Shown here: piece after piece, positions 55,153-57,807 of the stretch
How the letters are laid out: the number at the start of each line of letters is the position of its first letter
Numbering within the stretch: position 1 is the first letter of the stretch
Made by a program: the position numbers and the translations under genes
Assembly (NCBI GenBank): GCA_028288485.1
Contig: JAQBNO010000154.1
Coordinates: 1-64,000 of the forward strand
Reading direction: 5' to 3'
Source: Segetibacter sp.
GTDB lineage: Bacteria; Bacteroidota; Bacteroidia; Chitinophagales; Chitinophagaceae
DNA length: 64,000 nt
Notes under the pieces: generated by a model
Databases searched by the model: none
Told to the model about the DNA's origin: nothing
Seen by the model: only the letters and a program-made list of their open reading frames with translations

Positions 55153-55773
55153 ATGTCTAATGCAGATATATTGAAAAGGCTTGTAGACAGCCCGAATGCA
55201 ATAAAAATAATTGAAGCTGCACAATCTGTTTTTGAGAATGAAAAAATTGAGCGGCAAAAGTTTTATGACCTGGCCCATGAGAACTTTAAAGCAGAGTTTA
55301 TCAACGGGAGATTCTTTTTGATTCGCCTGCACGTTTAAGACACCTTGTCGTATCTACAAAACTTACCGGATATTCGACACCTATGTTAGTGAAAAAAAGC
55401 TTGGATTAGTGGGAGTCGAAAAAATGATGATAAGGTTAACCAGGAATGATTACGAACCCGATATTGTTACTTTAGTCAAGAGAGAGCAGTCCAATTTACA
55501 CCTGACCAAATGCTATTTCCGGCACCGGATTTTATAGTAGAAATCTTACCAGGTTCAACAGAAAAAATTGATCGTGGAATAAAATATATTGATTATGCGC
55601 ACACGGGGTACCTGAATATTGGATTGTCGACCCATCAAAAAAACGGTCGAAAAATACTTATTGCAGCAGGGCGAATATTATCGTCACGTAAAATTAGCGG
55701 GAGTAGGGAAATTCAGTTCGACGGTGGTGGAAGGATTTGTTTTGAAGGTGGAGGAATTGTTTGACAATGATTA
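55153..55773 (+). pseudogene. Uma2 family (DUF820) endonuclease remnant with several frameshifts
   Basis: Frame-spliced reading: ...RQKFYDLAHENFKAEFINGR / ILFDSPARLRHLVVSTKLTG / IFDTYVSEKKLGLVGVEKMMIRLTRNDYEPDIV / FSQERAVQFTPDQMLFPAPDFIVEILPGSTEKIDRGIKYIDYA / GVPEYWIVDPSKK / VEKYLLQQGEYYRHVKLAGVGKFSSTVVEGFVLKVEELFDND*. Confidence 0.85.
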
Positions 55774-55781
55774 GCAAGCGT

Positions 55782-56912
55782 TTACTTTATCAAATGCGGC
55801 ACATACCTGCTTACATTATCTGTTATCAAAGAATTCGCTTCCCTGATGCCTATGCCTGCCGGCTCCTGGCCTACTACCCAACTGCCAATCATCGGATACT
55901 TTCCATCAAAGTTTGGCAACTCCAATAACTCCTGGAAAACATAACCTTCTTTTCCATACTCGCCCTCGGTAAACTGTAGCAATTCCCCCTCCTTCACAAT
56001 TTCAATATTCGCTCCTTCTCTGCCTAGTATCGGCTTTTTAACATAGTTAGTAAGTAGAGCACTGTCAAAGTATGCAGCTAGAAGGTTGGGATGATCAGGA
56101 TACAATTCCCACAGAATGGGTAGAATTGCTTTATTGGCAAGAAGCATTTTCCAGGATGGCTCAATCCAGAAAGTACGATTAACATCGAGTAAAATGTTTT
56201 TACCAAATTCTTCTGTTACCATCCACTCCCAGGGATAGAGTTTGAATATATTCTTTATTGGCTGGTCTTCCATATCCATAAATTGCCTTGAATGTTCATC
56301 CCAGCCAATGTCGTCCACAAAAATAAGTTTCGTTTCAAATCCTGCCTGTATTGCACAATCACGCATGTACTCAACATTGGTTAAGTCTTCCAACGTTTCC
56401 TTTAAGCAGGTAAAATGAAGCGGAGCAGGATGGAGGTAATTTTTTAAGTACTTCCAGTAGTCAACCAGCTTTTCGTGTACGCTGTTGAACTGGTCTTTGC
56501 TTTTATCAAAATCCTGCAGCCAGAACCATTGAACAATGGCCGATTCGTACAAGCTTGTTGGAGTATCGGCGTTAAATTCCAGGAGCTTTACCTTTCCGTC
56601 TTTTACACAAAGGTCAAATCGGCCATAAATGGCCGGATGGTCTTCCGTCCAGGTTTTCTCGATATAAGGTATCAGCCAATCAGGAATATTGAACAAGTGA
56701 TAAAGTTTGTTATCCATCACATGCTGCACGGCACCAAGACAAAGATCCCACAAATCAGCGGTCGCCTTTTCTATTTGATGCACTTCCGTCATGCTTAATT
56801 CGTAGTAAACGCTTTCGTCCCAATAAGGAACGTTGGTTGTATGAAAACCGAAGCCGAGTTTTTCAACCGCACTCTGCCAGTTATTTCGTGGAGTTATTGT
56901 TTTCCGGATCAT
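55782..56912 (-). CDS. glutathionylspermidine synthase-like ATP-grasp protein (YgiC/YjfC-like)
   Basis: LYGRFDLCVKDG-type AIYGRFDLCVKDGKVKLLEFNADTPTSLYESAIVQWFW, EPSWKMLLANKAILPILWELYPDHPNLLAAYF, VKKPILGREGANIEI, IGSWVVGQEPAGIGIRE. Confidence 0.92.
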   Translation of the reverse strand: MIRKTITPRNNWQSAVEKLGFGFHTTNVPYWDESVYYELSMTEVHQIEKATADLWDLCLGAVQHVMDNKLYHLFNIPDWLIPYIEKTWTEDHPAIYGRFDLCVKDGKVKLLEFNADTPTSLYESAIVQWFWLQDFDKSKDQFNSVHEKLVDYWKYLKNYLHPAPLHFTCLKETLEDLTNVEYMRDCAIQAGFETKLIFVDDIGWDEHSRQFMDMEDQPIKNIFKLYPWEWMVTEEFGKNILLDVNRTFWIEPSWKMLLANKAILPILWELYPDHPNLLAAYFDSALLTNYVKKPILGREGANIEIVKEGELLQFTEGEYGKEGYVFQELLELPNFDGKYPMIGSWVVGQEPAGIGIREANSLITDNVSRYVPHLIK

Positions 56913-56995
56913 TTATAATTGTGTAAACTCTTGAATAATAGTGTGATTAAAGAGGCGTGATTTATTTTTTATTGTACCGGCATCAATTTTCATAG

Positions 56996-57082
56996 CATCA
57001 TCGTTGCTACGCTCAGTTCAACTATTATTTTTTAATTGAACTGCGCCTGGCAGTTGACCCTGCGCCAAAGGTCGCACTCACT
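56996..57082 (+). repeat. composite interspersed repeat
   Basis: catcatcgttgctacgctcagttcaactatt...aactgcgcctggcagttgaccctgcgccaaaggtcgcactcac. Confidence 0.65.
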
Positions 57083-57138
57083 TTATCTGCAAACCTATAA
57101 GCATCTTTGATGGTGCCGCTTATTAAATTTGGCTAACC

Positions 57139-57471
57139 TTAAGAAGATACACTGTAGCCGCCTCTTCCAAATCCACCCCTTGCTACCGCCCCTTTGAAAG
57201 CATTATTGCCAATATTAGATCTTTCATTCAGAGCACGGGAATAGTAACCGGCTCTTCCATAACTGCCATTACGGTAATTACCATAAGGCCTGAAGGCATA
57301 ATACCAGAGAAGTGCAGTCCCGATTCCTGAATGATGAGCCCTCGTATAAGGTGCAGTGGTGTCGCTTCTCATATACACCTTATTGGCACTCTCCCATTCT
57401 TTATCGGGTTTGTTACACGAAGCCAGTGCTGCTGTTATTAAAACAAGATTTATATATTTCGACTTTTTCAT
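57139..57471 (-). CDS. small lipoprotein, weakly YgiB/DUF1190-like, C-terminus RGGFGRGGYSVSS
   Basis: Lipobox LAASC-type (ALASCNK); Gly/Tyr/Arg-rich C-terminus; upstream of the ATP-grasp gene, same strand. Confidence 0.7.
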   Translation of the reverse strand: MKKSKYINLVLITAALASCNKPDKEWESANKVYMRSDTTAPYTRAHHSGIGTALLWYYAFRPYGNYRNGSYGRAGYYSRALNERSNIGNNAFKGAVARGGFGRGGYSVSS

Positions 57472-57480
57472 CGCTTCAAC

Positions 57481-57807
57481 TTACTTTACTGTTATAAAAA
57501 TTTCGTAATCCTTTGGCACTGATACATTTTTTGTATCGCCCTCGTCGTTTTCTGCAGTTCTATTTTCTATACCAAGTGAAGGTATAGTATCGTTGTATTG
57601 CACTGTTTTATACAGGCTATTTTTTACCCAAACTTTATGTTCGGTAGTAAGAATATCACGGCTACTGTCTATATGAGAAATATGAACTGAAGTTTCAACA
57701 GATCCCGCCTTATTTACTGCATCTGTAATGTCTTCTTTTTTCTGGTCGCACGAAGTAAAGGCAATTGCCAGGCAAGCAATAATTGCCATTGATTTTTTTA
57801 TAAACAT
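57481..57807 (-). CDS. hypothetical small lipoprotein
   Basis: Lipobox IAFTSCDQ, 10-bp gap to the next gene, same strand. Confidence 0.7.
   Translation of the reverse strand: MFIKKSMAIIACLAIAFTSCDQKKEDITDAVNKAGSVETSVHISHIDSSRDILTTEHKVWVKNSLYKTVQYNDTIPSLGIENRTAENDEGDTKNVSVPKDYEIFITVK

Follow-up and report, generated by a model that had tools for sequence, protein, structure and literature searches.

Results

The window (the whole 64,000-nucleotide stretch of DNA analysed here, from a genome of 6.4 Mb whose nearest named loci suggest the family Chitinophagaceae) carries three open reading frames in a row on its minus strand. These encode lipoA (57807-57481), a 108-residue lipoprotein; lipoB (57471-57139), a 110-residue lipoprotein and the predicted substrate; and a 376-residue stand-alone GSP_synth ATP-grasp enzyme of the YgiC/YjfC type (56912-55782). 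lipoA was recognized as the third conserved member of the module from alignments, homologues and a structural model, lipoB from alignments, co-occurrence, a model and dN/dS, and the enzyme from PF03738, its relatives in the PDB and aligned residues. All three reading frames lie where a preliminary description of this DNA placed them, and their coordinates bear out the same-strand order of two lipoproteins and an enzyme that it gave. The minus-strand segment 57142-57186 encodes the C-terminal tail of lipoB, VARGGFGRGGYSVSS, in which a conserved G-F-G motif is followed by 8 residues to the C-terminus. The repeat noticed earlier between the lipoproteins and the enzyme (56913-57138, no strand assigned) is a dispersed genomic repeat: the genome contains at least 40 matches to it, 72-87% identical. 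This repeat fills the 226-bp gap before the enzyme and lies outside the conserved module; as the partner and enzyme genes are only 0-50 bp apart in most relatives, we regard the gap as a local feature. Downstream of the enzyme (55153-55764), reading-frame fragments resemble, by eye, the frame-broken remnant of a Uma2-type endonuclease.

In the Pfam search, residues 12-375 of the 376-residue enzyme matched PF03738 (GSP_synth; E 5.9e-148) and no amidase domain appeared, as expected for the glutathionylspermidine synthase-like ATP-grasp protein without an amidase that had been described. A signal peptide is not evident. In an alignment with E. coli GspS, the enzyme has L225 and W230 in place of T441 and T446, which we take to be the glutathione-binding threonines; YgiC and YjfC have Leu and either Phe or Trp at these positions. 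The Mg/ATP residue set is kept (R98, D100, E112, N114, K261, K293 and R298), as are Glu391 of GspS, which is key for spermidine binding (E175 in the enzyme), and the second polyamine-contacting Glu (E123; residue roles from PMC6272389 and PMC3581523). The closest solved structures in a PDB search were YgiC (7uk8, E 4.6e-108) and YjfC (7uk6), both of which carry the RefSeq product name peptide--spermidine ligase, an activity published for them (Pederick 2023, as cited in PMC12568646). The aligned residues indicate that, relative to GspS, the acceptor side of the enzyme is changed and the amine side unchanged, and we predict a peptide/protein--polyamine ligase of the YgiC/YjfC type. The enzyme has the ATP-grasp synthetase fold and the Mg/ATP and polyamine residues in common with GspSA and trypanothione synthetase. 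It is not itself a bifunctional GspSA, from which it differs in lacking the amidase domain, in the replacement of both threonines and in an NCBIfam equivalog score of 181.9 against a cut-off of 882 bits.

The signal of lipoB is MKKSKYINLVLITAALAS-C and its tail ARGGFGRGGYSVSS, with a C-terminal end that reads RGGFGRGGYSVSS; AVARGGFGRGGYSVSS. The lipobox, identified by reading the sequence and not by a predictor, is LASC, and its Cys is invariant across 39 aligned partners, although it is missing in some more distant ones. Positions common to the lipoB-type partners in the family alignment (n = 19) are M1, S4, L9, D37 and G100-[FW]101-G102. Structure prediction gave no confident fold for lipoB: the AlphaFold model is disordered (pLDDT 51, below 50 in the tail). 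The body of the protein is strongly conserved in alignments within Bacteroidota. In comparison with a same-genus genome, lipoB had a dN of about 0.10 and a dS of about 2.2 and was the most constrained of the three genes (dN 0.10, 0.13 and 0.26 for lipoB, the enzyme and lipoA, respectively). The RGGFG codons vary synonymously across 23 sequences, and lipoB had no match on plasmids.

lipoA has a signal with the lipobox TSC, again read from the sequence and not taken from a predictor. Its model is confident and mostly beta (pLDDT 86, pTM 0.62), with no Pfam family and no match in the PDB (best Foldseek E 0.27). At 41 of the 80 named loci, lipoB is preceded by a lipoA homologue; these loci range over Chitinophagaceae, Chryseobacterium, Sphingobacterium and one member of Ignavibacteriales.

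We then asked how lipoB and the enzyme are distributed among 200 genomes of the host's family, counting the enzyme above the Pfam cut-off and lipoB where it was clear (E <1e-10). The enzyme occurred in 22 genomes and lipoB in 19. Rather than the independent inheritance that would speak against the proposed pairing, we found the enzyme in 19 of the 19 lipoB genomes (Fisher p ~1e-23, a value that ignores shared descent). Of the three further enzyme genomes, one has an enzyme gene cut short by the start of its contig and one a fragment with two stops; in the third, two tandem tailed proteins stand just upstream. At the class level the enzyme was found in 9 of 10 genomes with lipoB; the exception (G555), which has lipoA-lipoB and no detected enzyme, is a fragmented assembly. 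In the same-genus genome the enzyme and lipoA-lipoB occupy different contigs, each well away from the contig ends; the enzyme lies beside aspS. As the two genes are unlinked there and yet both kept, co-transcription alone is not a sufficient explanation for their association, which is beyond chance. By eye, the unlinked lipoA-lipoB pair of that genome adjoins cyanophycinase- and cyanophycin synthetase-like genes (L139, 5972-10642).

To follow the glycine-rich ending of lipoB, we compared 101 enzyme loci from at least eight phyla, all of them preceded by 300 nt or more of sequence. The set comprised the window, two E. coli loci, the named best relatives and the loci of the family. At 94 of the 101, the gene immediately upstream closes with G-[FLW]-G and about 7-17 small residues, while four had variants of this ending (RGQLG at L088 and L097, RGLLG at L103 and RGGYG in YjfM) and three, L080, L116 and L131, had no tailed upstream gene. 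A scripted tail test gave 95 of 101, and reading by eye gave the 94 with G[FLW]G; the script had picked wrong reading frames at L088, where lipoB ends RGQLG..., and at L137, where the true partner ends RGGFG. The background rate of such tails was 2.4% of the other reading frames in the same loci. The named loci are not independent, because they are best-scoring relatives and many come from Chryseobacterium or Sphingobacterium, and an evenly drawn class sample is therefore the fairer test. Among its 18 evaluable loci, 12 had the strict motif and two a variant (L195 and L198), and a tailed neighbour was absent at four (L184, L193, L196 and L197). The tail, whose conservation in Bacteroidota the preliminary description had named as a check, is kept far beyond that phylum.

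Distant GSP_synth members also had partners with [SG]G[FY]G...GG tails, sometimes downstream. Several of the distant genes at L155-L162 have a membrane protein of about 280-305 residues upstream and a protein of up to 472 residues downstream, and several of these downstream proteins end in SGFG...SGG-type tails. At L140, a single ligase follows a tandem pair of small exported proteins with GFG tails.

The tail outlasts the body of the protein that bears it. With the tail removed, 58 partners still resembled lipoB and 36 of the 95 had no detectable body similarity to it, the latter including the mis-picked reading frames at L088 and L137. A short tail shared by otherwise unrelated exported proteins beside a single enzyme family is the trace expected of a site that the enzyme recognizes and modifies, and the comparison suggests that the conserved glycine-rich ending is likely to be the enzyme's natural target. 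The results support the proposal in the preliminary description of a YgiBC/YjfMC-like pair with lipoB as a candidate substrate for C-terminal ligation of an amine or peptide, but the motif is not the terminus itself: it lies mostly about 7-17 residues (23 in YgiB) before a small C-terminal residue whose conservation is loose (S, G, E or A). This position suggests that the motif serves for recognition and that ligation would take place beyond it.

The E. coli gene pairs ygiB-ygiC and yjfM-yjfC are arranged as previously described and resemble the module of the window in several ways. Their stand-alone GSP_synth enzymes are 41-45% identical to that of the window, and both place the partner before the ligase, the partner being exported and having an RGG[FY]G tail and a final GG. 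The RGGFG attributed to both DUF1190 partners is present in YgiB, but YjfM departs from it at the aromatic residue. The likeness to YgiBC/YjfMC therefore holds for an RGG[FY]G-type tail directly upstream of a ligase, but does not extend to membership of DUF1190: the 110-residue partner in the window falls outside the Pfam model, and none of the 19 lipoB-type partners matched PF06693, whereas YgiB and YjfM did. Profile comparison of lipoB with DUF1190 (hhalign) gave a probability of 97.7%, but over 33 columns of the signal-peptide region only. Also unlike the E. coli pairs, the module in the window has lipoA as a second lipoprotein and no DUF350, PspA or DUF2491 neighbours.

Which amine might be used? 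Matches in the window's genome to NspC (40 bits, below the cut-off) and SpeE (about 22 bits) were weak, leaving spermidine synthesis by either enzyme unsupported. A deoxyhypusine-synthase-like gene (PF01916) was present in 28 of 28 genomes examined, with or without the ligase. In some bacteria, enzymes of this kind supply homospermidine, and, as the window's genome has the deoxyhypusine-synthase-like gene but yielded neither a spermidine synthase nor an NspC that convinced, homospermidine is the most likely amine here. We also considered DUF350 as a partner in trans and rejected it, since the only trace was a decayed fragment with three in-frame stops elsewhere in the window's genome (G000:C57:44886-45152). 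In two other genomes (G002 and G003; L181 and L182) DUF350 adjoins a spermidine-synthase-like gene, and the ligase is absent from both.

Discussion

The gene content of these loci, the co-inheritance of lipoB and the enzyme, the conservation of the tail and the retention of catalytic and polyamine-binding residues were all observed directly. The explanation that fits them best, and which we consider reasonably probable, is that an enzyme of the YgiC/YjfC type caps the C-terminus of lipoB with a polyamine before export. From the comparisons above we infer lipoB as the substrate, and likewise the ligation site, the amine, the timing and the role in the envelope. In this mechanism a cytosolic, ATP-dependent ligase would recognize, through G-[FLW]-G, the flexible Gly/Ser tail that ends the lipoB precursor, and would use ATP to phosphorylate its C-terminal carboxylate (Ser110), giving an acyl phosphate. 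The terminal amine of a polyamine, in the window's organism most likely homospermidine, would then attack the acyl phosphate to form a C-terminal polyamine amide. As the partners are exported and no signal peptide is evident in the enzyme, modification would have to precede export. Modified lipoB would next be exported and lipidated at the lipobox Cys, presenting a polycationic end at the envelope, where lipoA may be its partner. Several points speak against this explanation: the open papers available describe no modified partner protein, four of the 18 evaluable loci in the evenly drawn class sample have no tailed neighbour, the fragmented G555 assembly has lipoA-lipoB and no detected enzyme, and the last residue of the tail is poorly fixed.

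The position of the motif, some 7-17 residues inside the terminus and not at it, could also reflect a docking or chaperone role: lipoB or its precursor might bind the ligase or its product through GFG, with lipoB carrying, sensing or exporting a small peptide-polyamine conjugate made by the ligase. The name peptide--spermidine ligase, given to YgiC and YjfC, allows for peptide substrates and fits this arrangement. We nonetheless think it unlikely, as the trio has no conserved peptide-making neighbour and the flexible C-terminus of the partners closes on small residues, as would suit the acceptor of a ligase. Less likely again is that in the window's organism the ligase adds an amino acid, a peptide or some other amine to the tail; the weakness of the NspC and SpeE matches favours this, but the polyamine-binding Glu residues are kept in the enzyme and the deoxyhypusine-synthase-like gene is found in all genomes examined. 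A RiPP-like route, in which the modified tail is later cut off as a short polyamine-capped peptide and the rest of lipoB is a scaffold, would account for a tail that outlasts very different bodies and for the conservation of both protein ends, but is very improbable given that the trio has no conserved protease and that the body of lipoB is so strongly conserved within Bacteroidota.

The proposed capping of the lipoB C-terminus can be compared with two further published systems. Operons that link PspA with polyamine, ATP-grasp, DUF1190 and DUF350 genes likewise encode a glutathionylspermidine synthetase-related ATP-grasp enzyme with a lipoprotein, which that study calls metal-chelating (Ravi 2024, PMC11237479). 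The Bacteroidota trio differs from these operons in being without PspA, DUF350 and channel genes (neighbourhood comparison found neither DUF350 nor PspA conserved beside it), and a tail rule is unmentioned in the passages of that study consulted. The conjugation of spermidine to SUMO and ubiquitin (PMC12270671) also uses ATP to form a spermidine amide at a protein Gly-Gly C-terminus, but proceeds by eukaryotic E1/E2 chemistry with unrelated enzymes, and the analogy is functional only.

Both the enzyme family and its association with DUF1190 lipoproteins have been described before. We did not find the family-wide tail rule or the lipoA-lipoB-enzyme trio in the open papers searched, which does not in itself establish priority, and no open paper that we found names the natural substrate of E. 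coli YgiC or YjfC. The tail rule points to one candidate substrate per ligase. On a broader reading, which is plausible though somewhat short of probable, GSP_synth ATP-grasp ligases across bacteria would constitute a general system by which exported proteins are capped with a polyamine at the C-terminus. Each ligase would have a dedicated partner with an otherwise unrelated body and a Gly/Ser tail containing G-[FYLW]-G, and the tail would bear the polyamine amide, an envelope modification undescribed in the open papers searched. If this is true, polyamine conjugation of exported proteins would join bacterial envelope biology, and would be tied to the membrane-stress operons in which these genes also occur.
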